Source: Acidithiobacillus ferruginosus (GTDB taxonomy: Bacteria > Pseudomonadota > Gammaproteobacteria > Acidithiobacillales > Acidithiobacillaceae). From it: a stretch of DNA of 43,571 nucleotides. The translations under genes and the position numbers were made by a program. Below are positions 1 to 15,599 of the stretch, piece after piece; the stretch's first letter is position 1, and the number at the start of each line of letters is the position of its first letter. The notes under the pieces were generated by a model. The model worked only from the letters and a program-made list of their open reading frames with translations. It did no database searches and was not told the origin of the DNA. The stretch covers positions 1-43,571 of the forward strand of contig NZ_JABBDR010000099.1 of NCBI RefSeq assembly GCF_018854495.1, read 5' to 3'.

Positions 1-1214
1 CGGTCGACCGCGTCTAACTGTTCGGCGACAACCCATTGCAAATACTGAAAAAATTCCACACGATCGGACTGGTGCGCGGCAAACTCCGTTACCGCAGGTG
101 CTTCGGGACGACGATATTTTTCAGGCCAGACCGGCCAACCCCAGGGGGGAGGATCCTGGGTCTGGAGGTGTTCCCGGAGGGCCTCGAAAACCCCCAGACG
201 GAAGAGTGCCTCACCGCCCTCTTTTTGAAATTGGCGGAAAGCGCGGGCGCGCTCGCCATTGCCCGGTAGTTCCGTTTCGCGAAAGGCGTGATAGAGGAGT
301 TCCAGAATCTCCCGCTTGGCAGCGGCCACTCCCCCATAGTCCACCAGGTCAGTGCCGCGCAAGGCGCGCAGATCGGCCTGGAAATGCGCGTCATAGACCC
401 TGTCGTGGGCCGCGTAACAATGGGCAAACTCTGGCACAGCCTCCACGTCCACATAGAGAATATTGAGGAATTTTCGACTAGAAGGGCTGTAGGGACTGGC
501 ATGGTGGGGATTGTCCGGGAAAAGCGCATGTAATGGGTTGAGCCCCACCAGCTCCGCGCCAGATTGGGCCGCAATGTCCAGCACCTGCAGGAGATCGCTG
601 AAATCACCCATACCCCAGTTGCGACCCGAACGCAACGCGTAAAGTTGCAGCGCAGGGCCCCAGACTTTCCGGGATTCCTGGATCGCTTCGGGCGTATAGC
701 AGGCTTCAGGGACCGTGATCCACGGCATTTCTGCGCGGAGACCGTCTGGCCCCTGCAGAGTAAGGCGGTGATAGCCCAGGCCCGGGCCAAAGGGCAGATC
801 CAAGCGCCAACGCCGGAAGACTTGCTCGCCGATGCGACCTTCTTCCAGCAGCTCTAGGCTGGCCGGCTGGAATGTGCCTTCCCGGGCGTTCTCCTTTTCA
901 GGACAAAAACGCCAATGCCAGATATCCTGAGCGACATCCACCGGCAAAGAGAGGGCTACCCAAGGGGGCTCGGTCGTGATCCGCTGCACCAGTAGCGGCG
1001 GCAGGAGAGATTGCCAGGATGCCGTCTCTTTCTGTCGCAAGGCTTCGCGGGCATCTTGCGCATTTTCTGTCGGTACGCCCAAAGCTTTTAACAAGGCCAG
1101 TAAGGTGCCTTGAGGGACAACGCGTTTCCTTCCGACGGCGTTGTGATAATGCTCCAGAACGCCATAGCTTTGGCACAGTTCACGGATCAGGTTTTTGTCG
1201 AGGGGCGCTTTCAT
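1..1214 (-). CDS. malQ: 4-alpha-glucanotransferase (amylomaltase), 3' part beyond left edge
   Basis: The minus-strand frame stays open from an ATG at 1214-1212 to the window edge, giving about 404 residues. The start overlaps the treZ stop in an ATGA. The N-terminal ~140 residues resemble the extra N-terminal domain of long, enterobacterial-type MalQ; then comes glycoside hydrolase family 77 sequence, including LQLYALRSGRNWGMGDF, AELVGLNPLHALFPDNPH and SPYSPSSRKFLNILYVD. The last visible residues are FFQYLQWVVAEQLD, typical of the family. The catalytic Asp and Glu lie beyond the edge and cannot be checked. The enzyme moves maltosyl and longer glucan units between alpha-1,4-glucans in the cytoplasm, which here would recycle short maltodextrins left by GlgX and TreZ. 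Family assignment is confident; integrity is unknown because the gene is cut. Confidence 0.9.
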   Translation of the reverse strand, partial: MKAPLDKNLIRELCQSYGVLEHYHNAVGRKRVVPQGTLLALLKALGVPTENAQDAREALRQKETASWQSLLPPLLVQRITTEPPWVALSLPVDVAQDIWHWRFCPEKENAREGTFQPASLELLEEGRIGEQVFRRWRLDLPFGPGLGYHRLTLQGPDGLRAEMPWITVPEACYTPEAIQESRKVWGPALQLYALRSGRNWGMGDFSDLLQVLDIAAQSGAELVGLNPLHALFPDNPHHASPYSPSSRKFLNILYVDVEAVPEFAHCYAAHDRVYDAHFQADLRALRGTDLVDYGGVAAAKREILELLYHAFRETELPGNGERARAFRQFQKEGGEALFRLGVFEALREHLQTQDPPPWGWPVWPEKYRRPEAPAVTEFAAHQSDRVEFFQYLQWVVAEQLDAVD

Positions 1215-3046
1215 GGGTGTTGCTCCCCAGCCTCTTCATCCAGCAGACAGAGCACTCCCCAACCAGGGAGGCGTTTTTGTTGCAACAGGGCGGTTGCCTC
1301 CTGTGGTTGCGCAAAGACCAACCGGCCTTTAGGAATCAGGTCCAAAAACAGGGGTTCAGGTGCCCATTGCCCGTAGAGAGAGAGTATGGCGCCGTCGGCC
1401 AAATGCCAGTGCACTGCCAGGCCGGTTTTTCCCAGAAGATGCCAAGTGCCGCTGTCCCCCGGGACTCCGGCGAGACGGGGCACAATCTCGTCCCTCCGGA
1501 TCTGTAGAAGCCGGCGGTAATACTGTAACCAATCCGCGTGCGGGACGAGATTACGCTGTGTCCAATCCAGTGTGCTGGCGATAAAGGTCGATTCAGCACC
1601 AGGGTCTGGGATTTGCGCTGCTGTCTTCCCGGTGGAAAAATGCGCGAAAGCGGCAAATTCCCAGCGCCGTCCCTCCCGCACAGTTTGACTCAGTTCTTCA
1701 CCGAAATCACAGAAGAACAGGAAAGGGCTGATGGCGCCGAACTCTTCCCCCATGAAGAGGAGCGGCACCGCTGGAGAGAGAAGTAACACTGCGACGGCAG
1801 CACGCAGGGCTGCGGCGGGGCAAAGACTGGAGAGCCTCTCGCCCAGGGCGCGATTGCCAATCTGATCATGGTTTTGCAAAAAGTTGATAAAAGCGACGGG
1901 GGGCAGATAGGCGCTGGCTTCACCACGGGCACGATGGTCGCGATAGACAGAAGGTTGGCCCTGCCAGGCAAAACCCTCCGCCAGACAACGACCCAGATGA
2001 TTGGTGGGCTGGTCGGCAAAATCCCTGTAATAGCCGTCCTTCTCCCCTGTCAGCAGCACATGCAGCGCATGGTGGAAATCGTCATTCCATTGGGCCCGAT
2101 AGCCCCCTGATCCAAGATAGTGAGCAGCATTGTGATCATTTTCGAGCATCAGGTGGATCTGACGATCCTGCCCGGGTCCGGCGGCCACAGCGGCGGCGAT
2201 TTCTTCCAGGATATCGGGATGGGAGTCGTCGCAGATGGCATGTACGGCGTCGAAACGCAGTCCATCAAAATGGTATTCCTCCAGCCAATACAGGGCATTA
2301 TGCCGGAAAAAGTCGCGTACCACGCGGCTGTTCGGTCCGTCAAAATTGATGGCGGGACCCCAGGGAGTATGATGCCTTGGGGTGAAAAAATCCTCGGCAT
2401 AGCGATGCAGCGCATTGCCTTCGGGGCCGAAGTGGTTATAAACCACGTCCAGGAAGACCATGAGCCCTTTGCCATGGGCGGCGTCCACCAGAGCCTTGAG
2501 ATCTTCCGGCCCGCCATAAACGGCATCCGGGGCGAAAGGGAGCACGCCATCATAGCCCCAGTTCCGGCGGCCGGGAAAGTCTGCTAATGGCATAAGTTCC
2601 ACCGCCGTAATGCCCAGATCTGCCAGATCATCCAGGAGTTCCATGGCGGCCCGGTAAGTCCCTTCGGGGGTGAAGGTCCCCACATGGAGTTCGTAGATCA
2701 CGGTCTCATGCCACGGTCGACCCCGCCAACGGTCATCCTGCCAGGCGTAGGCGGCGGGGTCGATGACCAGCGACGGACCCTGGGCATCTTCGGGTTGATA
2801 TCGGGAGGCGGGATCGGGGACGGCACTCCCGTCGGGCAGTAGGAACTGATAACAGACGCCGCTGCCCAGGCCCGGAGCGAAGTGGTGCCACCAGCCACCA
2901 GCCGCGCTCTCCATGGTGCGCCGTTTCTTGCCGCCCGCCCAGGACAGAACGATCTCCAACTGCTGCACGCGCGGCGCCCAAAGCCGAAAAAGGACCCCTT
3001 CCGCCTCCAACATTGCCCCAAAGGGCATGTCGTGGCGGCGGATCAT
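1211..3046 (-). CDS. treZ: Malto-oligosyltrehalose trehalohydrolase
   Basis: 611 residues, slightly longer than the usual ~580-600. An N-terminal carbohydrate-binding module-like segment (about residues 10-100) precedes a GH13 barrel. The nucleophile is in DGLRFDAVHAI (Asp266), the acid/base in IHLMLENDHN (Glu302) and the stabilising Asp in FLQNHDQIGNRA (Asp394); YRAQWNDDFHHALHVLLTGE is a TreZ signature. The enzyme releases free trehalose from maltooligosyl-trehalose made by TreY. TreY is not visible and may lie left of the window. The start at 3046 overlaps the glgX stop (ATGA), and an AGGA sits about nine bases before it, so translation is probably coupled. The downstream neighbour is malQ. 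The assignment is firm. Confidence 0.95.
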   Translation of the reverse strand: MIRRHDMPFGAMLEAEGVLFRLWAPRVQQLEIVLSWAGGKKRRTMESAAGGWWHHFAPGLGSGVCYQFLLPDGSAVPDPASRYQPEDAQGPSLVIDPAAYAWQDDRWRGRPWHETVIYELHVGTFTPEGTYRAAMELLDDLADLGITAVELMPLADFPGRRNWGYDGVLPFAPDAVYGGPEDLKALVDAAHGKGLMVFLDVVYNHFGPEGNALHRYAEDFFTPRHHTPWGPAINFDGPNSRVVRDFFRHNALYWLEEYHFDGLRFDAVHAICDDSHPDILEEIAAAVAAGPGQDRQIHLMLENDHNAAHYLGSGGYRAQWNDDFHHALHVLLTGEKDGYYRDFADQPTNHLGRCLAEGFAWQGQPSVYRDHRARGEASAYLPPVAFINFLQNHDQIGNRALGERLSSLCPAAALRAAVAVLLLSPAVPLLFMGEEFGAISPFLFFCDFGEELSQTVREGRRWEFAAFAHFSTGKTAAQIPDPGAESTFIASTLDWTQRNLVPHADWLQYYRRLLQIRRDEIVPRLAGVPGDSGTWHLLGKTGLAVHWHLADGAILSLYGQWAPEPLFLDLIPKGRLVFAQPQEATALLQQKRLPGWGVLCLLDEEAGEQHP

Positions 3047-5175
3047 TTTCTCATTCCTCCGTGATGCAGGAGGACGAGGGAACGCCCTTGCAGCGGATAG
3101 CTCTCTCCACTCTGCTGCACCCCTTTGGCCGCGCCGTCGTCCTGAGCGGTATCCAGCAGGAGTTCCCAGGATGATTTGTTATCAGGCAGCGACGGCAGAG
3201 TAAAGGGTATACCATCGTGAAAGGCATTCAGCAGGAGCAGAAAATCCTCGTCCTTTACCGGCCGACCCTGTGCATCCAGATCTGTGAGCTCCGTGCCCGC
3301 CAGGTATAAACCCAGGCAGTGTGCGTCACCTTCCTGCCAATCTTCGGCGTCCATTTCTCGTCCGTCGGGATGAAGCCAGATGACATCCATAGTCTGGTCT
3401 GGCGCTACGGCCTGGCCGCGGAAAAAATGCCGGCGTCGCAAGCTGGGATGATCCCGGCGCAACTGGATTATTTGTGTGAGGAAATCCAGTTGCTTTTGCT
3501 GCACTGCGTTGACGTCCCAACTCAGCCAACTCAAGGGGTTATCCTGGCAATAGACGTTGTTGTTGCCCTGTTGACTGTGGCTGAGTTCATCACCCGCCAG
3601 CAGCATGGGTACCCCTTGGGAGAACAGCAGACTGGCCAGAAGATTGCGCTGCTGCCGGGCGCGCAGGGCGTTAACCTCAGCGTTATCCGTCTCGCCTTCG
3701 GCGCCGCAATTCCAGAGAAGATTATTATCGCTGCCGTCCTGATTGTCATTCTGATTAGCTTCGTTGTGTTTTTCGTTGTAGCTCACCAGATCATGCAGGG
3801 AGAAACCATCATGGACGGTAAGGAAATTGATGCTGGCGGTGGGGCCGCGCCCGGCCCTGGTATACAAATCAGCGGAGCCGCCCAGACACGCGGCAAGTCC
3901 TCCCAGTTGTCCGTCGTCGCCTTTCCAGAAGGCCCGCAAGGTATCGCGGTAACGGTCATTCCACTCCGCGCAGCCGGGCGGAAATGCACCCAGTTTGTAA
4001 CCACCTTCCCCCAGATCCCAGGGCTCAGCAATGAGTTTGACCCGGGCGAGCACGGGATCCTGGAGCAGGATTTCGAAGAGTGGTCCCATGCGGTCATCGG
4101 AGCGGAAGGGGCGCGTCAGAGAAACGGCGAGATCGAAGCGGAAGCCGTCCACGTGCATTTCTTCCACCCAATAGCGCAGGGAGTCCAGAATAAGCTGCAT
4201 GACCCTTGGGTGATCGGCGTTGAAGGAATTGCCACAACCGGTAGTGTCGATGTAATAGCGGGGCTTATCCGCTACCAGGCGATAATAGGCGGCGTTGTCG
4301 ATACCGCGGAAGCTGAGGGTGGGACCCAATTGGTTGCCTTCGGCTGTATGATTGTAGACCACGTCCAGAATCACCTCGATACCCGATTTATGGAGTGCCT
4401 TGACCATTTCCCTGAACTCGTCGATTTTACCGCTCGCCAGATACAGGGGATGGGGTGCGAAAAAGCCCAGGGAATTGTAACCCCAGTAGTTGCGCAGCCT
4501 ACGCTCCACCAGATCGCGGTCATCTACAAAAGTCTGTATCGGCAACAATTCGATGGCGGTCACTCCGAGCTTTTGTAGGTGCCCGAGTATGGGCGCTGAA
4601 GCAAGGCCAGCACAGGTCCCGCGGAGGTTTTTGGGAACCTTGGGGTGCTGCATACTGAGCCCACGCACATGGGCCTCATAGATAACCGTGTCCGACCAGG
4701 GGGTCTGCGGCGGCCGGTCATCGCCCCAATCGAATCGGTTATCCACCACGGCTGCCTTGAGCATCTGTGGAGCATTATCCCGCTTATCTAACGACAGATC
4801 CGCTTTGGCGTTGCCAATGCGGTAGCCAAAATGCGCGTCATTCCAGTCCAGTGTGCCCACAATCGCCTTGGCGTAGGGGTCCAGCAGAAGTTTGTGGGGA
4901 TTGCAGCGTTGGCCCTGTTCGGGTGCATAGGGACCATATACCCGGTAGCCATAGACAAGGCCGGGCTTGGCATCGGGCAGATAGCCGTGCCAGATTTCGT
5001 TACTTTTCTCGGGTAGGGGGAGTCGATGCGTCTCCCGCTCCCCCTGAGCATCGAACAGACAGAGTTCCACGCGCTCGGCCTGCCCGGAAAAAAGCGCAAA
5101 ATTGATTCCACTGCCATCCCATTCTGCGCCTAATGGATAGGAATGACCCGGCCACAGTGCAGGTTTCCTTTTCAT
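3043..5175 (-). CDS. glgX: Glycogen debranching enzyme, GlgX/TreX isoamylase type
   Basis: 710 residues, the usual length for GlgX/TreX. An N-terminal CBM48-type domain (about 10-110, with SGINFALFSGQAERVELCLFD) is followed by a GH13 barrel: DVVYNHTAEG near 271, nucleophile in VDGFRFDLAVSL (Asp348), acid/base in LIAEPWDLGEGGY (Glu384) and FLTVHDGFSLHDL (Asp456). The NEANQNDNQDGSDNN stretch is characteristic of the subfamily. It hydrolyses alpha-1,6 branch points of glycogen, giving linear chains for TreY/TreZ and MalQ. It starts 13 bases after the treS fusion with an AGGG upstream and overlaps treZ by four bases. In a tre operon the name treX would also fit; sequence alone does not separate them. 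Confidence 0.95.
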   Translation of the reverse strand: MKRKPALWPGHSYPLGAEWDGSGINFALFSGQAERVELCLFDAQGERETHRLPLPEKSNEIWHGYLPDAKPGLVYGYRVYGPYAPEQGQRCNPHKLLLDPYAKAIVGTLDWNDAHFGYRIGNAKADLSLDKRDNAPQMLKAAVVDNRFDWGDDRPPQTPWSDTVIYEAHVRGLSMQHPKVPKNLRGTCAGLASAPILGHLQKLGVTAIELLPIQTFVDDRDLVERRLRNYWGYNSLGFFAPHPLYLASGKIDEFREMVKALHKSGIEVILDVVYNHTAEGNQLGPTLSFRGIDNAAYYRLVADKPRYYIDTTGCGNSFNADHPRVMQLILDSLRYWVEEMHVDGFRFDLAVSLTRPFRSDDRMGPLFEILLQDPVLARVKLIAEPWDLGEGGYKLGAFPPGCAEWNDRYRDTLRAFWKGDDGQLGGLAACLGGSADLYTRAGRGPTASINFLTVHDGFSLHDLVSYNEKHNEANQNDNQDGSDNNLLWNCGAEGETDNAEVNALRARQQRNLLASLLFSQGVPMLLAGDELSHSQQGNNNVYCQDNPLSWLSWDVNAVQQKQLDFLTQIIQLRRDHPSLRRRHFFRGQAVAPDQTMDVIWLHPDGREMDAEDWQEGDAHCLGLYLAGTELTDLDAQGRPVKDEDFLLLLNAFHDGIPFTLPSLPDNKSSWELLLDTAQDDGAAKGVQQSGESYPLQGRSLVLLHHGGMRK

Positions 5176-5188
5176 TCTTGCATGCCCT

Positions 5189-8100
5189 TCATGTCAAAGC
5201 AGCCCAAATAGCGTCGCCGGGTGTTTGTTCAGGTGCAGCATCCATACTGGCCAAAAGAATCTGTAGGGTGCTGCGCAGGGAATCTTCTTGCAGTGGCTCT
5301 AGGAACTCAGGGATGCCGTCCAGGAGACGCTCCCAGAGCGCCAGCTCCAGGAGACTTTCCCGGAGAAATACGTCTGCCGGATAAAACGCGGCCCCGGTCG
5401 CCACCTCGTCATAGGCATGTGTGAAGGCGTCCAGACTTTGTTTTACCCAGATTTGGACGCCTTCCCGTATTTGTAGCAAATCATTTCCCGCACTCGCAGA
5501 AATGCGGCTCAAGGTGGCAAGGGCGGCAGCGATCAGCGAGAGGCGCATAGCGGCCAGATCAAGTAGCGGGGACTTTTTGCGGCGTCTTTGTACGGGTGAT
5601 AGACGCGGATCACCACCGAGATTGATGAGAATAAAATCCTCTTCTACAAGTAAAGCCTGAGCGAGGCCCAGGTAGCCTGGGCACCGGATACGGGTAAGCG
5701 TAGCGGGTAAGGGCAAATGGCGCCACGCGGCCAGGCGCTCGTGGATTCGGTCCTGTACCGCAAGCCAGTCTTGCGTGTTTTGGCGCAGTCCCTCCGGCAA
5801 GCCTGGCAATATCCTTTCCAGAACGGCAGCGGCTTTTTCCGCAGCCCGGGCCGTGTGGTTCACCCACTGTGCCAGGTCTTCTACGGTAAAGGGTTCGGGA
5901 TCGAAGGCCTGGTCGCCGCTGGGCTGTGCCAAGGCGCGGTGCAGTTCGGCAATACGCCGACCAAGGGTGGCCATACGCAGCCGGTAAAGGCCGTGGTCGC
6001 TCTCAGTTGGCGGGGAGTTATCAGCGCTTGGTGCAGCGGTCATACGTTCGGCCAGTGTACGTTCCAGATAATCCACGCTGAAAGTCCAGGCATCGCCCTG
6101 ATTTTCTACATAGCGGCGCAGGAGAGCTAGCGCAAGGACATCGCCCTGCGCCGGACGGAATTCCACCCGACCGAGAACCTGCGCCATATGGGGGTAAGGG
6201 GATATCTCCGTAAGGAAGACGCCTACTTCGAACTCCGGATCGCCCCCTGCCTGCAAACGACGATAGCCTTTAAGATAGAGCTGCTCTCCAAGAACAATAT
6301 TACTGTGCCGTTGCTCCAGACTGGGGCGTCGCAGTGTAATCAACTCACTTTCGCTGAAATCGTAGGCAGCGCTTTTTCCAAAGACCATGACGCCACCGGC
6401 AAAGGGTTGCTCGTCGCCTTTACCCATGCTACGGACCAAGGTGCGGCAGAAAGCATCGTTCCCGAAGGCATCCAGCAGTACGCCGAGCCGCTCCTTTTGC
6501 CGAACCTTGGCGAGAATCCAAGTATGAAAGGTGTCCATGAGATTTTCCTGCTCGTCTTCCCAGGCGATGGCAAGGGGCAGAGAATAGTAAATATTTTCGC
6601 CATCAGCGCCGGGGGTCTCGATGATCATCCAGAACCAGACCTCTTGGCCGCTCGGGGAGCGCCATTCATCCTTGATCTCGATGCCGACCGCGGCAACGGC
6701 CTCCTGATCGCCAGCCACCCAGCGCTTGCTCTTCAGATAAGGTGCGAGGACTTCCACTTGCAGTTGTCGGCGGGTTCGGGTGGCGAGGGCGCGGCGAGTA
6801 GCGCTGACATCCCCGTCCAGAGAGAGAAATGTATGCCAACCCTCCAGTAGGACGAGGACAGGTAGCTCCGGACGCGCCAGACGTTCTTCGTGCCAGGCCG
6901 GTGGATTGGTGTCTTCGTCGAGAGAGAAGGCCAGGAAAGTATGGGCTGGAAGGGTCAGGAGATAGGGTAGCTGTCCGATGGGCGGGAAGGCGCTTTTCCC
7001 AATGAGCTCCACCGGGGTACGGCCAGCGTATGCTTCCAGCCCCAGTTCCACCGCCTGCGCCGTACGCGAGAGATTGGCCACGCAGAGGACGGATGCTCCT
7101 GCGTATTCCCGCAAATAGGCCAACATCTTACGGTTGCCTGGGCGCAGGAAGCGGATATTCCCGCGACCGAAGACTGGGTGCTCCTTGCGCACGGTGATGA
7201 CTTTGCGGGTCCAGTGGAGCAGAGACGAGGCATTGCGACTTTGGGACTCCACATTAACGGCTTGGTAGCCATAGACCGGATCCATGAGGAGTGGCAGATA
7301 GAGCTGCTCAGGGTCAGCGCGGGAAAAGCCACCATTGTAGTCCGGGCTCCATTGCATGGGGGTGCGCACACCCTTACGATCGCCCAAATAGATATTGTCG
7401 CCCATACCGATTTCGTCGCCGTAGTACATGATGGGCGAACCGGGCATGCTCATGAGCAACCAGGTCAGGAGTTCGATCTTTTGCCGGTCATTGCTGAGCA
7501 AGGGAGCGAGGCGTCGGCGGATGCCAAGATTCAAGCGCATGCGAGGGTCCGCGGCATACTCCCGGTACAGATAATCCCGTTCCTGCCGGGTCACCATTTC
7601 CAGAGTCAGTTCGTCGTGATTGCGCAAAAAGATAGCCCACTGGCAGTTCTCGGGGATATCTGGCGTCTGGCGCAGGATATCGGTGATGGGATGGCGATCT
7701 TCCTGCGCCAACGACATGTAGATGCGGGGCATTAAGGGAAAATGGTAGGCCATTTGGCATTCCTCGCCCTGCCCGAAGTATTCGCGTACGTCTTCCGGCC
7801 ACTGGTTGGCCTCAGCCAGGAGGACGCGGTCGCGGTAGTGGGCATCTACGGCAGCACGGATTTGCCGGATGACGGCATGGGTCTCAGGCAGGTTTTCGTT
7901 GTTAGTGCCGGCGCGCACGCAGAGATAAGGAATGGCATCTAGACGCAGACCATCCACACCCATGTCCAGCCAGTAGCGCAGCACCCGAATCATGGCCTTG
8001 ACTACCTGTGGATTATTGTGGTTCAGATCCGGTTGATGGGAGAAGAAACGATGCCAGTAATAGGCTTTGGCGATGTCGTCCCAGGCCCAGTTGGATCGCT

Positions 8101-8602
8101 CGGAATCGGAGAAAATAATACGTGTTTCCGGAAATTTTTTATCCGTATCGCTCCACACATAAAAATTGCGCTTAGCCGAGCCGGGCGGAGCGCGTCGCGC
8201 CGCCTGGAACCACGGATGCTGATCAGAGCTATGGTTGATGACCAGTTCGGTGATGACCTTCAGACCCCGGCGATGCGCCTCATGGAGGAAATGACGAAAA
8301 TCGTTCAGCGTACCATAGTCGGGGTGAATGTCCCGATAGTCCGAGATATCATAGCCGTCATCGCGCAGGGGGGAAGGATAGAAAGGTAAAAGCCAAAGGG
8401 CGTTTACCCCCAGATCCTGGAGATAATCCAGCCTGCTGGTGAGGCCCGGGAAGTCGCCGATGCCGTCGCCGTTGCTATCCTGGAAGGTGCGGACGTGCAG
8501 TTCGTAAAGCACAGCATCTTTGTACCAGAGGGTATCCCCGTCAGCAGAAGCTACCGCTGCCGTGTCCGGCGCGGCCCCCGTCTCCATTTTTTCTGCTGTC
8601 AA
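5189..8602 (-). CDS. treS: Trehalose synthase fused to a maltokinase-like domain (kinase site degenerate)
   Basis: 1137 residues. Residues ~22-570 are trehalose synthase (GH13): nucleophile in [13 protein letters not shown] (Asp222), acid/base in [11 protein letters not shown] (Glu264) and [12 protein letters not shown] (Asp330), so maltose-trehalose interconversion looks intact. Residues ~630-1137 are a Pep2/maltokinase fold: the N-lobe [10 protein letters not shown] and [13 protein letters not shown] are recognisable. In the C-lobe the catalytic-loop consensus HGDYHLGQ is replaced by PGYLGLAQ (residues 975-982, Asp to Tyr977), and the metal-binding DFEGEP is replaced by NLGGDP (994-999, Asp to Asn). 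I infer a pseudokinase. The start is TTG at 8602-8600, chosen because AGGGG lies six bases upstream; an ATG five codons later has no good ribosome site. It is the first gene of the glucan operon. Confidence 0.93.
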
Positions 8603-8645
8603 AACCTTCCCCTCGATCTTCTGGGCCTCAGCAACCTCTGTGTAA

Positions 8646-8674
8646 CCTATAGTTCAGTGCCGCTGATTATGCAA
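8646..8674 (-). promoter_or_regulatory. Possible promoter of the treS-glgX-treZ-malQ operon
   Basis: Reading the minus strand, TTGCAT (8674-8669) and TATAGG (8651-8646) are separated by exactly 17 bases and lie about 45 bases before the treS start. The -35 matches consensus at only three positions, so this is a weak candidate and nothing more. Confidence 0.25.
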
Positions 8675-8886
8675 AAACGACGATTAAAGGCGCCGACGTG
8701 CCCGCCACAGAGGGGCATCGGTTTACGCCCACTATCGCCCTGACAAGATCACCAGCTGTGCCCAAGGGCGCCATTGCGTCCATTTCGCTCAGGAAACACT
8801 CCCGCTTGGTCACCTTGCGCCGTCACGAAAGGCCTTGATCTTCAGCGAAGGTCACCTATCCGGACATACTGTTTTTCCCTACGCTA

Positions 8887-8922
8887 TCTGATCGGACTGT
8901 TGTATGAACGGTCTAGATCAGA
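8887..8922. repeat. Inverted repeat between the small membrane protein gene and treS
   Basis: TCTGATC (8887-8893) and GATCAGA (8916-8922) form perfect 7-base arms around a 22-base loop. It lies just past the end of the 168-aa gene on the minus strand. No T-run follows on either strand, so it is not a convincing terminator. The rest of 8675-8886 holds nothing I can identify. Confidence 0.3.
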
Positions 8923-8928
8923 GACCCC

Positions 8929-9435
8929 CTAACGCTTTTCATCCTCCAGAATTGAGCGACGATCGCTCTTGGTCAGTTTTTGGTATATACCAAGTCCGAC
9001 CAGCGCAAGAGTGGATGCTAAAATAACGGTAGCTGGGTATAACAATAATGAAATATTTTCTAATCCTGCCTTGAATAGATAAACCAGCCCTTCAAGCCCC
9101 ACGGAAACAATAATAATAATAAATATTTTTATGAGGCCTCCGGTGATTTCTTTCTGGGTCAGCAAATCCTGAGATCTCGATGTATAGACCTCTTCTTCGA
9201 TGATGTAACGGACGACTTCAAGGACTGCCATTGCGACCACCGCCACGCTGATCATGCTCAGAAGCGCTTCCGGTAGGAATCCGCCAGAAATTAAATCCAT
9301 CAATAGATTCCATAACGACCAGGCCATCAACCCGAAGGCTGCCAGAAAAAGCAGGCAGGCCGTTATAATAAAGCTGAGGGCTATCAGTTTCTCAAATATC
9401 GATTTCAATTTCTGATTCCTCGCTGCGGGGGCCAA
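8929..9435 (-). CDS. Hypothetical four-helix inner-membrane protein
   Basis: I do not recognise the family. The frame encodes up to 168 residues with four hydrophobic segments at about 17-39, 54-74, 98-118 and 126-150, a charged loop EEEVYTSRSQDLLTQKEI between helices two and three, and a basic/acidic tail. The overall plan resembles PsiE-like small membrane proteins, but this is only a topology similarity. The frame opens at TTG (9435), which lacks a clear ribosome site; a second TTG at residue 10 has CGAGGA about eight bases upstream and may be the real start. The gene is noticeably richer in A and T than its neighbours (for example the run of ATA/ATT isoleucine codons near 9110-9130), hinting at separate ancestry. 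It shares strand with treS but is 326 bases away. Confidence 0.7.
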   Translation of the reverse strand: MAPAARNQKLKSIFEKLIALSFIITACLLFLAAFGLMAWSLWNLLMDLISGGFLPEALLSMISVAVVAMAVLEVVRYIIEEEVYTSRSQDLLTQKEITGGLIKIFIIIIVSVGLEGLVYLFKAGLENISLLLYPATVILASTLALVGLGIYQKLTKSDRRSILEDEKR

Positions 9436-9452
9436 ACCATACTTGGCCTGCC

Positions 9453-9554
9453 TTAATCCAGGTAGAACTCGACATTGCGTTCACGGCGGTCATCCACGGT
9501 CAGAAACGACGGATCCAGACTGTGGTGGACAGCCTGAACGCAGCAGCGAGCCAT
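9453..9554 (-). other. Possible gene remnant or 33-aa small ORF
   Basis: An ATG at 9554-9552 opens 33 codons ending with TAA at 9455-9453. The second half, SLDPSFLTVDDRRERNVEFYLD, has a protein-like charged composition such as the C-terminus of a cytoplasmic protein, but no ribosome site precedes the ATG and an in-frame stop lies four codons upstream. I cannot name a family. It could be a decayed gene end or chance. Confidence 0.22.
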
Positions 9555-9576
9555 TTCTTGGCTAGGTCAGCGCTCC

Positions 9577-9912
9577 TTAATGTTCTGGTTTTTTGCTTTT
9601 ACCTGCAAGACCATCTGTTTTTGGCCCTGCAGCTCCCACACCCTTGCTGTTGATGGCGGCTGATTTCGTACTTCTCTGCTGTTGATGTATTTCCGGTCGC
9701 GCCGCGTTCCGGCGCTGGTGCGCATATTCCTGTTCTGCTTTTCGTTCTTCCTTGGCTTGTGGAGAATTTGCGGCGAAAGGTATGTTGTGCGTTACCGGGT
9801 ATGGTGTGGAAGTTGTGGCCGCAGAAGTTATTGCGGAGTCGGCGCCGGCAACGGTAAAAACGCTACCTATGATGATGGTGGTGCCGGCAATGGCGGTAAA
9901 GATGGTTTTCAT
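9577..9912 (-). CDS. Small exported hypothetical protein
   Basis: 111 residues. The N-terminus MKTIFTAIAGTTIIIGSVF followed by TVAGADSA is a classic Sec signal peptide with cleavage likely near residue 24. The mature part is short, Ala/Lys/Gln-rich and low in hydrophobic residues (KEERKAEQEYAHQRRNAARPE), predicted disordered, ending in KSKKPEH. The ATG at 9912 is well supported by AAGGAG six bases upstream. No family recognised. A periplasmic or secreted location is inferred from the signal peptide. It stands alone, with 140 bases after it and over 350 bases before it. Confidence 0.7.
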   Translation of the reverse strand: MKTIFTAIAGTTIIIGSVFTVAGADSAITSAATTSTPYPVTHNIPFAANSPQAKEERKAEQEYAHQRRNAARPEIHQQQRSTKSAAINSKGVGAAGPKTDGLAGKSKKPEH

Positions 9913-10268
9913 GGCATTTCTCCTTGTGGTTTAGCAGTTGAAAGCCGTGTACTTCGTGATGTGGCAATCATAGGGCAATTCAGCGAGCCATGCCATTCAT
10001 TACGCGATCGGTTCCTGAATATCTGTTGGACAGGTGTCTGGCCAATCCAATGACTGCAATCAGTCTTGGGACCATCAGGACTCAACGGCGGCAGGGCAGC
10101 GGAAGCGGTCGTCCAGCGGACTGACCATCATGTTCTCGAAACTCGTCACCATGACTGTAAACCGTAGCAGTCTTTTGATAATGGTTTTCGATAATTGCAA
10201 CCCTTTGATTTACCGTGCAACAATCACCGCCATCTGAAGACTCTCGAAAACGGTCGGTTCAGAGATCA
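9913..10268. other. Gene-free stretch with a 21-bp repeat copy
   Basis: No reading frame with a credible start or recognisable protein occurs here on either strand. The part nearest 9912 should hold the promoter of the exported protein, but I see no good -35/-10 pair. One copy of a 21-bp direct repeat lies at 10096-10116. The stretch may be decayed mobile or coding DNA. Confidence 0.4.
10096..10116 (+). repeat. 21-bp direct repeat, copy 1
   Basis: The 21 bases from GCAGCGGAAGC to GGTCGTCCAG are identical to 13558-13578 in the same orientation, 3.46 kb apart. Flanking bases differ. An exact 21-mer repeat is not expected by chance in a window this size. Confidence 0.7.
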
Positions 10269-10439
10269 CTAGGACAGGCCTTTCATGAAGCGAAGAGTGA
10301 ACGCAGCACACACCAGAACTATGCCCACATTCGCCATCAGCCTTGCCCAAAAGTGACCCCGGAAAAAGGCAATGTCCACACTGACAATGATTACGGACAA
10401 CATAATAACGTAACAGGATACGACCAGAGCCTTTGTCAT
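10269..10439 (-). CDS. Small two-helix membrane protein, 56 aa
   Basis: An ATG at 10439-10437 opens 56 codons ending in TAG at 10271-10269. There are two hydrophobic segments, about residues 4-26 and 34-50, joined by the loop DIAFFRGHFWARL; the second segment runs MANVGIVLVCAAFTLRF. The FFR-x2-FW-x-RL-x2-N-x-GIVL pattern is what I would expect of a conserved small inner-membrane protein, and I believe similar proteobacterial hypotheticals exist, but I cannot name one. GAGGGG lies eight bases upstream and overlaps the stop of the sulfotransferase fragment 12 bases before, so the two may be co-transcribed. Function unknown. Confidence 0.6.
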   Translation of the reverse strand: MTKALVVSCYVIMLSVIIVSVDIAFFRGHFWARLMANVGIVLVCAAFTLRFMKGLS

Positions 10440-10451
10440 CGTGGGGTCCCC

Positions 10452-10736
10452 TCAGGTGCTGGTATCGCCAAGCGCAGAAAAATGGCTCGCCTGATCATAA
10501 AGCCGGAGATATTCGCGGGGGTCAGAAACATACTCGATGAAGTGTTCGCGCTCCGGTTTTGGGTGAATTTGCGCAAAATAATGCGGTTCTTTAAACACCG
10601 GCAAAAAAACATCAGGATGTTTCTGGAGGTGGCGATACAGGGAAGTGGTGCCGCCTTTGACGGTGCCGGTAATGAAGAAATTGGGCCACCGGGATAGGCT
10701 TGCGGTTTCTGTTTGGGCAGGGCTTGGGCTGTGCAA
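10452..10736 (-). pseudogene. Truncated sulfotransferase (N-terminal fragment)
   Basis: 94 residues matching only the N-terminus of PAPS-dependent sulfotransferases of roughly 250-300 residues. WPNFFITGTVKGGTTSLYRH (18-37) is the 5'-phosphosulfate-binding loop (usual form GxxKSGTTSL), followed by LQKHPDVFLPVFKEPHYFA. The frame then stops at GDTST where the family continues with the 3'-phosphate-binding part and the acceptor-binding domain; no continuation is visible in any frame downstream. The start is TTG at 10736 with GGAGG four bases upstream. Without the C-terminal two thirds it cannot be an active sulfotransferase. I call it a pseudogene fragment, though the intact ribosome site means a peptide could still be made. 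Confidence 0.75.
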
Positions 10737-10850
10737 ATGTCCTCCTCAAGGGGGTCTTAGTCATAGGTCGAAAAGGCTAAATGCCGATCTCGCGTGGCGC
10801 AGTATAGCATTCATCGTGTAACGGCCAGCCCCTTCCGCAGTGCTTCTGGG

Positions 10851-11402
10851 CTACGGCAGGAGCACCGGCGATGCGTAGGCCGAGGCGGGTGCTGGGGGTG
10901 GTAAAAGCACGGTCGGCGGCCGCGTGGAAGGTGGGCGGATGGGCCTCGGTGGGGGGCGGTGCCAGCGAGAGGGGCGCCCAGGGCGATACGTTGGAAAGGG
11001 CCCAGGGCCGATATAGGCTGGTATATATACATGCTGTCGGGGTTCTGGGGGCGTAGGCAAGCTGCTTTGGTAGTTGTTGAGTGCAGTAAGCAGATTCAGG
11101 CGTTCGATGGCCGTCAGGGTTTTATTTTTGTCTGCCGGGGGCGGCGCTGCGGCCGGCTGGACGGGTTGCGGTTGTGCAACGGCTGGTGGTGCCGGAGGAA
11201 TGGGTGGCAGCGCCTGCAACTTTTTTGCGTTTGGTGGCGGCTGGTCGCCATAACTGACGGTGCCATTGGATGAAACCCAGCGATAAATGGCAGCCTGGGC
11301 GGACAGCGGCGCTATGCCACCTGCCCATACAAGCAGCGCGACACAGGCCATGAAGGCGGAGCGCCGGTTGCGTGAAATGCCACTCAGAAAAGCATGACAC
11401 AT
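10851..11402 (-). CDS. DUF4124-domain exported protein with proline-rich tail
   Basis: Taken from ATG 11402 this gives 183 residues; an in-frame GTG at 11435 and an ATG at 11351 are alternatives, none with a strong ribosome site. A signal peptide with core ACVALLVWAGGIAPLSA ends at AQA, then IYRWVSSNGTVSYGDQPPPNAKKL matches the DUF4124 module (I-Y-[RK]-W-x5-G-x-[VT]-x-Y-[GS]-D-x-PPP) found at the N-terminus of many proteobacterial periplasmic proteins. The rest is low-complexity Pro/Ala/Arg sequence with a short helical patch (LTAIERLNLLTALNNYQ) and many PPP motifs. Envelope location is inferred. Function is unknown for the family. It is a lone gene on the minus strand. Confidence 0.8.
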   Translation of the reverse strand: MCHAFLSGISRNRRSAFMACVALLVWAGGIAPLSAQAAIYRWVSSNGTVSYGDQPPPNAKKLQALPPIPPAPPAVAQPQPVQPAAAPPPADKNKTLTAIERLNLLTALNNYQSSLPTPPEPRQHVYIPAYIGPGPFPTYRPGRPSRWHRPPPRPIRPPSTRPPTVLLPPPAPASAYASPVLLP

Positions 11403-11532
11403 GGCAGTGTAACCTGAGGCAGTAACGGCACGCACATGACGCTAAGGCTGCGCATCTTTTGCCGCCGCCAGTTCGGCCTTCATGCGGGCGATTTCACCGC
11501 GGCCGGGCGTCAAATGGGGACCAAGGAGTGCT

Positions 11533-11994
11533 TCATGCATAGAGCAACCGCCCGCGTGGCTCTGGTATAGAGCGCCCCAGATCCGTTGCTGTCTCGACCC
11601 ATTCACCAATCACCCGTTCCGCATTGGCTACCGCCTCTTGATAAGTGGCGCCATCAGCCATGCAGCCAGGGAGTTCAGGAACTTCCACGATAAAAGCGTT
11701 GTCTTCGTTACTCCAATAAATGACCAGTTCATACTTACTCATCGTTATTAATCCCCAGGGATACTTGGTGAGTATGCCGCGCGCTTGCTTCACTTGGTAG
11801 GGCTTCGCCATGCGTCCTATGGGTTGGAGATTGATGATCTCGGCCACCCCTTCTTTGGTAAGGATATGATGGTCACCCTTCACGCGAAGCTTAAATCCAA
11901 GCCCATCTAACAAGGACAAAAGGTCAGCAAAGGCTATGTTGGCATCGCTCCGACCACTGAGAACGGCGGTCTGGATCTTTTCGTGTTTACCCAA
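11533..11994 (-). CDS. HicA toxin-HicB antitoxin in-frame fusion
   Basis: 153 residues in one frame. Residues 1-~80 are HicA-like: GKHEK at the start, DLLSLLDGLGFKLRVKGDHHILTK with the catalytic-type His in GDHH, and QPIGRMAKPYQVKQARGILTKY. Residues 85-153 are a complete HicB-like protein beginning MSKYELVIYW, with VEVPELPGCMADGATYQEA and ending in RLLYA, the normal HicB end. In usual loci hicA ends just after the KxVKQ...KY segment and hicB is a separate gene; here PWGLIT joins them with no stop. The HicB ATG (11742-11740) keeps a GGGGA about nine bases upstream, so separate HicB may still be made. The start of the whole frame is TTG with no clear ribosome site. HicA normally cleaves mRNA and HicB neutralises it; whether this product is toxic is unknown. 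Confidence 0.82.
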   Translation of the reverse strand: MGKHEKIQTAVLSGRSDANIAFADLLSLLDGLGFKLRVKGDHHILTKEGVAEIINLQPIGRMAKPYQVKQARGILTKYPWGLITMSKYELVIYWSNEDNAFIVEVPELPGCMADGATYQEAVANAERVIGEWVETATDLGRSIPEPRGRLLYA

Positions 11995-12034
11995 GAATTA
12001 CACCAAGCCTGAACGCTTCATTCGTTTGATTCAT
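11987..12034 (-). CDS. 15-codon leader ORF overlapping the hicA start
   Basis: ATG at 12034-12032 is preceded by AAGGAGG with good spacing and encodes 15 residues (MNQTNEAFRLGVILG) before TAA at 11989-11987. It runs over the TTG start of the hicA-hicB frame (11994) in a different frame. It could couple hicA translation by termination and reinitiation, or be the original N-terminus of hicA separated by a one-base shift. Confidence 0.4.
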   Translation of the reverse strand: MNQTNEAFRLGVILG

Positions 12035-12168
12035 GGCTCGGCCTCCTTCTGGAGTAAGCGATTCTCGCTCTGATAAGCGTAACCCAATCAAACGTCCGCT
12101 TCCAGTCTGGCACCGCCCTTTGAGTTCGCAAAAAATGGTCTTCTTCTCACAACCATGGAGACCGTGTC

Positions 12169-12798
12169 ATGCCAACAGAACTCAACGGCACCCAGCACCC
12201 ACAAATCCCTTGGAACAAAGGCAAAGTCATAGGTCAGAAACGGCCCTTGAAACTACAGGAGGTATGGGCCATTAGAATTCGCCTGCAACTGGCCCAACAG
12301 ATCCGCGAATTAGCCCTCTTCAACCTCGCCATCGATAGCAAATTGCGGGGCTGCGACCTCTTGGGACTGCATGTTTTCGATATCGCACATGGTCACACCG
12401 TCATGCACCGCACCATCGTGCTCCAACAAAAAACTCAGAGGCCCGTCCAATTTGAGATCACCGAGCAAACCCGAGAGGCCCTGACCACATGGATCGCCCA
12501 TGCCAAACTCAAGGATGACCAGTTTCTCTTCCCCAGCAGGAAACACGCCTCACCTCATCTTTCCACCCGGCAGTATGCGCGTGTTGTAGAGCGTTGGGTT
12601 ATTTCCATAGGGTTGGATCCGTCCGCCTATGGCACGCATACCATGCGCCGAACCAAGGCCACATTGATTTACAAGCGCACCAAGAATCTCCGCGCCGTGC
12701 AACTTCTGCTGGGGCACACCAAGCTGGAGAGCACCGTCCGTTATCTGGGCATTGAGGTCGATGATGCTTTGGAAATGGCCGAACAGACGGAAGTGTAG
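12169..12798 (+). CDS. Short tyrosine recombinase (integrase family)
   Basis: 209 residues, consisting mostly of the catalytic domain of tyrosine recombinases. Visible catalytic residues are Arg60 (DSKLRGCDLLGL), His157-x-x-Arg160 (GTHTMRRTKAT), His183 (LLGHTKLEST) and the nucleophile Tyr192 (VRYLGIE). A normal core-binding SAM-like domain is missing; residues 1-30 are short and basic. Proteins of this compact form are annotated repeatedly in proteobacteria as phage-type integrases. GGAG lies about eight bases before the ATG. It is the only mobility-type gene in the accessory stretch, flanked by hicAB and the DUF4160/DUF2442 pair. All catalytic residues look present, so activity is possible, but its target site is not identified. 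Confidence 0.88.
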   Translation: MPTELNGTQHPQIPWNKGKVIGQKRPLKLQEVWAIRIRLQLAQQIRELALFNLAIDSKLRGCDLLGLHVFDIAHGHTVMHRTIVLQQKTQRPVQFEITEQTREALTTWIAHAKLKDDQFLFPSRKHASPHLSTRQYARVVERWVISIGLDPSAYGTHTMRRTKATLIYKRTKNLRAVQLLLGHTKLESTVRYLGIEVDDALEMAEQTEV

Positions 12799-12815
12799 CG
12801 GAATTGATTTTGGCC

Positions 12816-12844
12816 TTGAGATAGTGCAATGATTTCCCTATCAT
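12816..12844 (+). promoter_or_regulatory. Promoter candidate for the DUF4160/DUF2442 pair
   Basis: TTGAGA (12816-12821) and TATCAT (12839-12844) are separated by 17 bases, each matching sigma-70 consensus at four positions. Transcription would begin near 12851, the A of the next gene's ATG, and no ribosome site precedes that ATG, so the message may be leaderless. Confidence 0.45.
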
Positions 12845-12850
12845 GAAGCC

Positions 12851-13087
12851 ATGACCAACTACTCAGTAGGGGATGACTGGCGTGTACGCGTCAACGGCCG
12901 GGAGCAGCATCCGCTTCCGCACGTCCATGTGCAGTTTCGTGACGGATCCCGTGTGTCGCTTGCCATCGAGACAGGCGCGCTTCTGGTCGGCTATGTCTCG
13001 CCCCGGAAGCGATTGGAACCGGTGCGGACCTGGATTGAGGCGCATCGGGATGTCCTATTGACGGAATATCGGAGGTTGAATCCATGA
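12851..13087 (+). CDS. DUF4160-family protein
   Basis: 78 residues. The N-terminal half, DDWRVRVNGREQHPLPHVHVQF, carries the PHVHV core of the DUF4160 family, followed by a glycine-bearing beta stretch (ALLVGYVSP) and a C-terminal helix with RTWIEAHRDVLLTEYRRLN, matching the family layout and length. No catalytic role is established for the family. The gene overlaps the next by ATGA (13084-13087), so the two products are probably made in balance. Paired genes of this type with a DUF2442 partner are common and have the compact, overlapping arrangement of toxin-antitoxin modules; that functional reading is inference. Confidence 0.8.
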   Translation: MTNYSVGDDWRVRVNGREQHPLPHVHVQFRDGSRVSLAIETGALLVGYVSPRKRLEPVRTWIEAHRDVLLTEYRRLNP

Positions 13088-13533
13088 ATCAAGCACCCAG
13101 AATTGAAACGGCGACGATTACTGGCCCGTTCCAGATAGAAATCCATTGGTCCACCGGCGAAGTGTTTACCACGGATCTCAAGGATCTTATTGGTCCGCCA
13201 CGGAAGGAAGACCCCTTTTGCGCGCTTCATGATCCGGCCTTCTTCGCTCAGGGGCATGCAGATGACTGGGGCGATGGCCTGAACTGGCCAGGCGGATTGG
13301 ATCTGGGCGCAGACCGTCTCTATGCCTTGGGGAGGAAACAGACAGGATTACCAACGCGTGAGGACTTCATCCAGTGGATGGAGCGGAACAATCTCAGCCT
13401 GACTCATGCGGCAGAAGCCATCGGTATGACTCGGCGCATGATAGCCTACTACAAAAACGGCTCTCGCCCGATACCAAAGACCGTGTGGCTAGCCTGCATC
13501 GGTTATGAGGTGCTTGAACGCCACGCAGCTTGA
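13084..13533 (+). CDS. DUF2442-domain protein with C-terminal helix-turn-helix
   Basis: 149 residues. Residues ~5-85 are DUF2442-like (IETATITGPFQIEIHWSTGE, then DLKDLIGPP and a DPAFFAQ/NWPGGLDLGADRLYALG segment). Residues ~93-145 form a helix-turn-helix of the XRE/Cro kind: REDFIQWMERNNLSLTHAA, EAIGMTRRMIAYYKNGSRP IP and KTVWLACIGYE. The DNA-binding domain makes it the likely autoregulator, and antitoxin-like partner, of the DUF4160 gene it overlaps. The ATG is inside the stop of that gene, and translation is probably coupled. The palindromic operator one would expect is not obvious upstream. Confidence 0.8.
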   Translation: MNQAPRIETATITGPFQIEIHWSTGEVFTTDLKDLIGPPRKEDPFCALHDPAFFAQGHADDWGDGLNWPGGLDLGADRLYALGRKQTGLPTREDFIQWMERNNLSLTHAAEAIGMTRRMIAYYKNGSRPIPKTVWLACIGYEVLERHAA

Positions 13534-13557
13534 TTAAGGTGAATAATGGCCGATTTT

Positions 13558-13578
13558 GCAGCGGAAGCGGTCGTCCAG
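13558..13578 (+). repeat. 21-bp direct repeat, copy 2
   Basis: Identical over 21 bases to 10096-10116. It lies 25 bases after the DUF2442 stop. The surrounding 13534-13764 has no gene I can support and is AT-rich near 13690-13760. Confidence 0.7.
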
Positions 13579-13764
13579 AAATTGGTGGTCAGTATGTAGC
13601 GCGCTTTGGTGACGCTTACTAGACATAGAAAGGCGGACAGATTCAGGGCTGGATTTGACCTCAAAAGTGCCTGAAAACCCAGTGTCGATTAAACGTTCGT
13701 TTTTTAAATTATTACTCTTCTATAGATGGTACCCCTCACTTGTACATTATCACTTGTTGCCTGA

Positions 13765-14037
13765 TCGCTTGAGTGTGCCATCGCAGGCACCGAGTTTCGG
13801 CAGGGAGCCTGGTTGCGCAGTATCCCTGCCGGAGCAACCCGCAGCTACCAAGAACAGGCGAGGGGCATGGACCGGGCATCGGCGGTGCGTGCCGTGGGGC
13901 GTGCCAACGGCGCGAATCCCATTGGTATTGTCATTCCCTGCCATCGCGTCATCGGCTCCGATGGCACCTTGACCGGGTACGCGGGCGGAATAGAGCGCAA
14001 ACGCTGGCTGTTGCGGCATGAGGGTGGTGATTTTTAG
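13765..14037 (+). pseudogene. 5'-truncated O6-methylguanine-DNA methyltransferase
   Basis: After a stop at 13762-13764 the frame reads SLECAIAGTEFRQGAWLRSIPAG and continues as a clear Ogt/Ada C-terminal domain: TRSYQEQARGMDRASAVRAVG, then NPIGIVIPCHRVIGSDGTLTGYAGG with the methyl-acceptor Cys in PCHRV, and ERKRWLLRHE. Normal Ogt proteins have about 70-80 further N-terminal residues, absent here, and two residues are missing between W and IP compared with the usual W-x2-L-x2-IP. No credible start exists. I read it as a decayed ogt or detached Ada methyltransferase domain. It converges on the ada-alkA gene, whose stop it overlaps. Confidence 0.8.
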
Positions 14038-15503: not shown

Positions 15504-15599
15504 AGTGTGTTTATAAGCCAGGCGGCTGCAAGTGTCTCGTCATTTTCGGACGTCGATATTGAGGAGGCGGCGCGCAAAAACAAAGCCACCCCATTCTTA
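15504..15599. other. Short region upstream of ada-alkA
   Basis: This should contain the ada-alkA promoter on the minus strand. I find no confident -35/-10 pair and no gene. Confidence 0.3.

Follow-up and report, generated by a model that had tools for sequence, protein, structure and literature searches.

A TreS-maltokinase fusion with a putative pseudokinase half in Acidithiobacillus ferruginosus, and recurrent loss of kinase residues in genomes without a GlgE match

Known TreS-maltokinase systems

Trehalose synthase (TreS) and maltokinase form a single polypeptide, with TreS first, in Estrella lausannensis (TreS-Mak; PMC7935935) and in Pseudomonas aeruginosa (TreS/Pep2; PMC8084333), where both halves are active and work together with GlgE. 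In Mycobacterium smegmatis the homologous proteins TreS and Pep2 are separate chains; the kinase is active and docks on the C-terminal domain of TreS, where it is held by a salt bridge of TreS Arg312 (5JY7; PMC6509496). Maltokinase structures have been described for Mycobacterium vanbaalenii and Mycobacterium tuberculosis (4U94, 4O7O; PMC4306142). Here we describe a fusion with the same domain order encoded in a 43,571-nucleotide stretch of DNA from Acidithiobacillus ferruginosus (contig NZ_JABBDR010000099.1, analysed over its full length and hereafter called the window). Unlike in the systems above, the site of its kinase half is lost, and no GlgE match was found in its genome.

Pseudokinases, which have kinase homology without the catalytic and metal-binding aspartates, are known mostly from protein kinases. 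The domain described here is of another origin, with a small-molecule kinase as its ancestor, and forms one chain with a metabolic enzyme. No prior account of a dead fused maltokinase, or of a link between such a domain and GlgE, was found in the literature searched, the coverage of which leaves out most subscription journals; in the available part of a review (PMC11046441), the words 'pseudokinase' and 'pseudoenzyme' occur 0 times.

Loss of the maltokinase active site in the window

The fusion gene (5189-8602; this and all other window features given here lie on the minus strand) has a TTG start and translates to 1137 amino acids without an internal stop, which agrees with the open 3.4-kb TreS-maltokinase frame described in an earlier note made from the letters of the window. 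The TreS domain (residues 26-561; 6920-8527) scores 927.5 bits against the NCBIfam model treS_nterm (TIGR02456), above the curated cut-off of 678, as a member of the TreS-Pep2 fusion family should. Asp222, Glu264 and Asp330, which we take to be the catalytic acids of a GH13 enzyme, are all present, and the TreS half is thus predicted to be a functional trehalose synthase. The C-terminal domain (residues 601-1092; 5327-6802) is homologous to maltokinase: it matches the TreS_Cterm 'putative maltokinase' model TIGR02457 at E 6e-88, though its 296-298 bits lie below the curated cut-off of 375, and up to an E value of 10 the only PDB sequences that it matches are three maltokinases.

In the maltokinase structure (M. 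vanbaalenii numbering), Asp305 is the putative base and Asp322 a magnesium ligand; Ser136 and Asn137 belong to the P-loop, Lys149 is also named, and Lys413, Tyr416 and Tyr420 lie near maltose (PMC4306142). The activity of M. tuberculosis maltokinase was abolished by an Asp-to-Asn change at the Asp322 position and by mutation of the Asn137 equivalent, and was cut strongly by mutation of the Ser136 equivalent, while the M. vanbaalenii enzyme was nearly inactive after mutation of Tyr416, Tyr420 or Lys413 (PMC4306142). The earlier note had read two maltokinase motifs as changed in the window, HGDYHLGQ to PGYLGLAQ and DFEGEP to NLGGDP, and both changes are confirmed by the codons and by alignments. 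In the degenerate catalytic loop PGYLGLAQ (residues 975-982; 5657-5680), Tyr977 (codon 5672-5674) replaces Asp305, and in the degenerate DFE motif NLGGDP (residues 994-999; 5606-5623), Asn994 (codon 5621-5623) replaces Asp322. The degenerate P-loop LEQRHSNI (residues 762-769; 6296-6319) has Arg765 for Ser136 and His766 for Asn137, and the degenerate maltose-binding segment (residues 1092-1099; 5306-5329) has Arg1092 for Lys413, Asp1095 for Tyr416 and Glu1099 for Tyr420. His at 137 and Arg at 413 are also seen in relatives scored as intact, so that His766 and Arg1092 alone say little. Further changes are His303 to Pro975, His307 to Gly979, Glu324 to Gly996, Glu326 to Asp998 and Arg342 to Leu. 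The phosphate-binding lysine Lys778 (6269-6271), which aligns with Lys149, is retained, and the equivalents of His245, Gln310 and Asp343 are likewise shared with the mycobacterial enzymes. Also retained is the motif NQGDAW (residues 834-839; 6086-6103), which aligns with the maltokinase interlobe hinge through 4u94 and 5jy7.

A phmmer alignment of the window kinase alone with M. vanbaalenii maltokinase 4u94 (E 9e-13) has no gap at either motif; the three maltokinases of known structure also align with a profile built from 42 fusions. Since the alignments are gapless at both motifs, no catalytic aspartate has been displaced to a nearby residue, a prospect that the earlier note had raised. It is highly improbable that the window kinase still works, whether through displaced residues or on another substrate: its alignment is gapless, the P-loop Ser is lost as well, and its change at the magnesium ligand is the one that abolished the M. 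tuberculosis activity (PMC4306142). A change of substrate does seem possible in the family, as loci L144-L154, L212 and L214 keep both aspartates with the maltose site alone changed. Sequencing error is unlikely, because three relatives described below (G013/L034, G005/L035 and P0002) also lack both aspartates. Each of the residues expected of a functional maltokinase (EC 2.7.1.175), namely the catalytic Asp, the magnesium-binding Asp, the P-loop Ser and both maltose-binding Tyr, is replaced in the window. Kinase homology, loss of the catalytic residues and a frame under purifying selection (see below) together make the reading of this domain as a putative retained pseudokinase, proposed in the earlier note, well supported.

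Loss of kinase residues and absence of GlgE

GlgE was called by a match to PF11896, the GlgE N-terminal family. The earlier note had seen no glgE in the window, and this extends to the whole genome (G000; 3.0 Mb in 309 contigs, one of which is the window), where no PF11896 match was found. None was found in the genomes of two relatives, Acidithiobacillus ferrivorans DSM 22755 (G005) and the Acidithiobacillus metagenome-assembled genome (MAG) G013. The single TIGR02457 match in the window genome is the fusion itself; no second, intact maltokinase was found there.

GlgE was then scored in 153 (73 + 80) fusion-bearing genomes, which are not a random sample. A class draw gave matches in 32 of 369 genomes, with 22 long matches kept and 10 short, weak ones dropped, and a phylum draw gave matches in 65 of 398, with 58 kept and 7 dropped; the union of the two is 75. 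The orders of G303 (19 of 147 genomes matched, 5 kept) and G162 (3 of 5) were searched because of the altered kinases there, and the kinase family was matched in 4 of the 31 genomes of the window's own order. Loci chosen by likeness to the window were the best 80 of 122, of which 70 were tested for GlgE; outside the test are L034 and L035 (which repeat G013 and G005), L056, L094, L099, L101, L106, L108, L109 and L110.

GlgE was found in 134 of the 153 genomes and not found in 19. Two Sulfuricella MAGs, L036 and L089, carry GlgE together with an intact fusion. A catalytic Asp was lost in 13 of the 19 GlgE-negative genomes versus 0 of the 134 GlgE-positive ones (Fisher p 1e-14), and any of eight essential sites was altered in 17/19 versus 8/134 (p 1e-14), although these p values overstate the case because the genomes are related and were partly picked by likeness to the window. 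Which letters a site may carry, and which eight sites count as essential, was settled after the first GlgE search and before the second. A fairer count comes from the class and phylum draws, where kinase state played no part in the choice of genomes: in these draws alone, with the window genome dropped, Asp loss was seen in 4/8 GlgE-negative versus 0/66 GlgE-positive genomes (p 6e-5), and alteration of any essential site in 7/8 versus 8/66 (p 3e-5). On the best tree, with branches of any support, there are 10 independent pairs that differ in GlgE; when any essential site is counted, 7 of these run in the expected direction (median of 500 pairings, at least 6) and 0 in the opposite one (p 0.016).

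The finding therefore reaches further than first stated, in that the loss recurs and tracks the absence of GlgE. Since Asp loss was accompanied by no detected GlgE in 13 of 13 cases, the kinase motif predicts the presence of the GlgE route in this sample, and annotations of maltokinase or of a GlgE pathway are probably wrong for fusions with this loss.

Other fusions with altered kinases

Within the family of the window, full-length fusions were found in 3 of 29 genomes, those of the window (G000), MAG G013 and A. ferrivorans DSM 22755 (G005). Both aspartates are absent from the MAG protein, which is 99% identical (G013/L034), and from the A. ferrivorans DSM 22755 protein, which is 87% identical (G005/L035), so the substitutions noted earlier have counterparts in relatives. 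In an alignment of 121 proteins, both aspartates are gone in the window and in the A. ferrivorans relative P0002, the base alone in P0003, P0004, P0005, P0024, P0027 and P0028, and the magnesium ligand alone in P0061. Two rows, P0058 and P0104, are incomplete at the site (P0058 was flagged at the active site solely for this incompleteness), and the remaining 110 have both aspartates. Position 977 is His in G005/L035 and P0002, and His also stands at the base position of P0122, which is outside the tree. Nearest to the window outside Acidithiobacillus are the metagenomic proteins P0003-P0005, which join it in the TreS tree with an SH-aLRT value of 98. Here the base is Asn and the maltose tyrosines are lost, with the magnesium-binding Asp and a Thr/Asn P-loop kept, a partial loss that would fit stepwise decay.

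Losses are also seen in other groups. Asp322 is replaced by Gly in purple sulfur bacteria and their kin (Lamprocystis purpurea, Thiodictyon, G162, G824 and L040) and in G303, and by Asn in L112, P0061 and G054, the last from the window's order and a different family. Both aspartates are lost in G858, and the base is His in G394. A group of fusions among P0176-P0231, including that of Methylomonas lenta (P0212, with Asn), have Asn or Tyr at the base and keep the magnesium-binding Asp. Among 110 further proteins, taken from the best 120 of 1042 matches, 13 are without the base Asp and 95 are without a disallowed letter at 16 sites. The Asp state needs at least five changes on the TreS tree among genomes of known GlgE status; this is a quick tree, in which 62 of 150 inner branches reach a support of 95 and 44 fall below 80, and several rows, including G394, sit on long branches. 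Of the 153 genomes, 146 are on it; rows whose TreS part is short, L112 included, were excluded. On these alignments, Asp loss in fused kinases is recurrent and not private to the window.

Selection on the altered kinase domain

The ratio of nonsynonymous to synonymous substitution rates (dN/dS) was calculated by the NG86 method with our own script. For the kinase half it was 0.11-0.36 in nine altered pairs versus 0.06-0.25 in ten pairs run as intact, and for the TreS half 0.04-0.12 and 0.01-0.10, respectively; the altered pairs are not all independent, three of the nine keep both aspartates, and the intact set includes L144-L145, in which the maltose site is changed. The bootstrap range for the altered kinase was below 0.5 in eight of the nine pairs. 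As dN/dS is well below 1, the altered kinase domain is under constraint, less tightly so than a live one.

The altered domains are also mostly of ordinary length. Genomes without a GlgE match contain 17 altered kinases, 15 of which have 460-477 residues in the stretch compared, against an intact median of 466.5 (437-492); the other two are L112, with a kinase stretch of 424 residues in a frame that starts at the contig end, and L135, with 428. In a set of 95 thinned intact kinases, 64 columns reach a conservation of 90% or more; these make up a conservation table, and the window kinase keeps 41 of them. In 18 altered kinases, the usual residue is kept in 63/180 cells at ten phosphate, magnesium and maltose positions and in 116/126 cells at seven positions in the hinge or directly following it, where the position groups were picked after the table had been seen, the 18 rows are not independent, and Ser/Thr and Lys/Arg swaps were scored as changes. 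At 834-837 and 839 the usual residue stands in 16, 18, 17, 14 and 17 of the 18, respectively.

These data bear on the idea of passive decay, in which the kinase became useless once GlgE was lost, its site drifted, and the domain lingers with no role as clean deletion is hard. Such decay would explain why the mean dN/dS of altered kinases exceeds that of intact ones and why the window and A. ferrivorans DSM 22755 proteins are 79% identical in the kinase and 96% in TreS; it is also in keeping with G394, where the kinase half is 428 residues long, below the intact range, and keeps 25 of the 64 conserved positions. Against it stand the open frame, a dN/dS far under 1, and the contrast between the hinge sites and the ten active-site positions, groups that were chosen post hoc. 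We therefore regard passive decay as a possible but rather doubtful account of the altered domains.

A proposed explanation

We know of no use for maltose 1-phosphate where GlgE is absent. In relatives with the GlgE route, TreS turns trehalose into maltose, the kinase yields maltose 1-phosphate and GlgE polymerises it. Without GlgE, maltose 1-phosphate would be a dead end and probably harmful, and for this reason lineages that lack GlgE would come to lose the ability to bind maltose as well as the catalytic base and the Mg/ATP site. The kinase domain itself would be retained, presumably because it packs on the TreS half and stabilises or positions it. This explanation, that of a TreS with a fused pseudokinase whose catalytic residues were lost for want of GlgE and whose domain is kept as a structural part, is the one we favour as reasonably probable. 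In the operon of the window, glycogen made by the GlgA route would be cut by GlgX and reworked by TreZ and a MalQ-like enzyme, and TreS would turn the maltose into trehalose without a drain into maltose 1-phosphate.

Published work on maltose 1-phosphate points the same way. In Streptomyces, maltose 1-phosphate accumulates in a glgE null mutant, which has a growth defect that is not seen in a pep2 null mutant, and build-up of this compound is lethal in M. tuberculosis (PMC5042117). In P. aeruginosa without glgE, maltose 1-phosphate rose almost eightfold (PMC8084333). Colonies failed to appear when the active TreS-Mak of E. lausannensis was introduced into one E. coli host, and the authors presumed that maltose 1-phosphate toxicity was the cause (PMC7935935). 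Since maltose 1-phosphate accumulates without glgE, and with harm, loss of GlgE should favour loss of kinase activity.

Several points weigh against the explanation. Phylogenetic pairs for Asp loss alone number 4 versus 0 (p 0.125, not significant), and well-supported branches alone leave 4 pairs, too few for a test. Two genomes, G056 and G823, are GlgE-negative yet have an intact kinase, though both assemblies are fragmented, with a completeness of 93% and 94% and about 250 and 290 contigs, respectively. In other negatives, too, a missing GlgE may reflect an assembly gap, but G712 and G858 each consist of one contig and G696 of three. Eight GlgE-positive genomes carry altered kinases. Six of these (L144, L145, L146, L148, L152 and L154, near Bradyrhizobium on the tree) keep both aspartates and are changed at the maltose site only, with His307 to Arg and Tyr416 to Asn or Asp, and their kinases may have changed substrate or binding mode. 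The other two, G627 and G643 (L197 and L198), combine an altered fused kinase with GlgE and, near the latter, a stand-alone maltokinase frame of 574 amino acids, so that the fused copy may be redundant. The sample consists of genomes that retain the kinase domain and gives no rate of domain deletion in lineages without GlgE. The somewhat faster evolution of altered kinases would also follow from weaker constraint. Finally, Arg312 of M. smegmatis TreS aligns by hand count with Gln300 in the window, and the contact is not kept; the M. smegmatis interface is therefore not used here as support. A scaffold role for the retained kinase domain, which was one suggestion of the earlier note, is plausible.

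The other suggestion was a maltose/ATP sensor, and this is weakened, as far as the canonical sites are concerned, by replacement of the maltose-binding tyrosines, the P-loop Ser and the magnesium-binding Asp. The domain might instead regulate TreS allosterically by binding another ligand, or a nucleotide in the absence of magnesium. Four residues that belong to the nucleotide and hydrogen-bond network, Lys778, Gln982, His888 and Asp1015, are unchanged, and in M. smegmatis the ATP site of Pep2 has elements in common with the TreS interface (PMC6509496). The same replaced residues count against such a regulator, and the substitutions vary from lineage to lineage, a pattern that gives no hint of a single new ligand common to all; a regulatory role thus appears unlikely.

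The altered fusions amount to a natural, repeated experiment on whether metabolite toxicity can drive the silencing of one half of a bifunctional enzyme, and on the reasons for which a silenced half persists. The part that the kinase plays for TreS beyond catalysis is made testable by these proteins, in which catalysis has probably already gone.

Fusions with an altered TreS half

A mirror case was found among Bacteroidota. In 11 of 11 fusions from Cyclobacteriaceae, Flammeovirgaceae and two kindred MAGs (L091-L097 and L099-L102), the TreS nucleophile Asp is replaced by Pro or Ala, whereas four other Bacteroidota fusions (L085, L086, L087 and L113) retain it. GlgE is present in all eight of these 11 genomes that were tested, and all kinase motifs that could be read in the 11 are intact (L094 is cut short). 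In the ten such genomes that were searched, the fusion alone scores above the TreS cut-off, and weaker matches reach at most 272 bits. The altered TreS halves are 76-89% identical between species in five pairs, with synonymous sites saturated. The eight that are in the tree form a single clade with full support, so the loss of the nucleophile looks like one event. The TreS half of this group is probably dead, judging from the missing nucleophile.

Taken together with the altered kinases, this allows a more tentative reading, to which we give somewhat less than an even chance: the fusion would be a two-headed enzyme in which the halves are mutual structural partners, the kinase dying repeatedly without GlgE, where maltose 1-phosphate would be harmful, and TreS dying where maltose need not come from trehalose. 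If it is borne out by assay that either half can die while attached, this would support a mutual structural role.

Genomic context of the fusions

In the window, the fusion gene is followed by glgX (3043-5175), encoding a glycogen debranching enzyme (TIGR02100, 1028 bits, above cut-off), and by treZ (1211-3046), encoding malto-oligosyltrehalose trehalohydrolase (TIGR02402, 698 bits, above cut-off), which overlaps glgX by 4 bases. Next is the start of a 4-alpha-glucanotransferase (malQ) gene (3-1214), of which 404 codons precede the contig end. All four genes lie on one strand and form an operon of trehalose and alpha-glucan genes. The best model for the gene at 3-1214 is NF011077 (malto-oligosyltrehalose synthase, 1693 positions), matched over positions 5-391 at 428 bits, and the next-best models are 4-alpha-glucanotransferases; every match is under its cut-off, as expected of a gene cut by the contig end. 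Perhaps this is the MalQ portion of a fusion of MalQ with TreY; if so, papers that name the A. ferrivorans gene treY and those that name it 4-alpha-glucanotransferase would agree. GlgA is found above its cut-off in the window genome, so glycogen can arise there by the classical route.

The trehalose operon of A. ferrivorans has been named as treS, glgX, treZ and treY (PMC5468388). Transcript values of 46 and 15 at two temperatures, a difference that was not significant, were reported for Acife_0606 (PMC5085989), which we infer to be the A. ferrivorans counterpart of the window fusion gene. In the available text of both papers, the gene is labelled simply trehalose synthase.

Gene context was also compared around 14 altered-kinase loci, some of them short or at contig ends. 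A TreZ-like neighbour is present at five (L103, L112, L223, L224 and L226), and at L227 (G005) GlgX is present as far as the contig end. The other eight (L038, L039, L040, L219, L220, L221, L222 and L225) showed no counterpart of any of the four window genes, and a rule that altered kinases belong to this operon was therefore rejected. At L221, the fusion frame of G394 (8517-13391, minus strand) has about 560 residues upstream of TreS with no Pfam or NCBIfam match at the thresholds used; this stretch may be a true extension or read-through of an open frame. At L219, a type I-G CRISPR cas3 gene (13179-15572, plus strand) lies near the degenerate fusion of G054.

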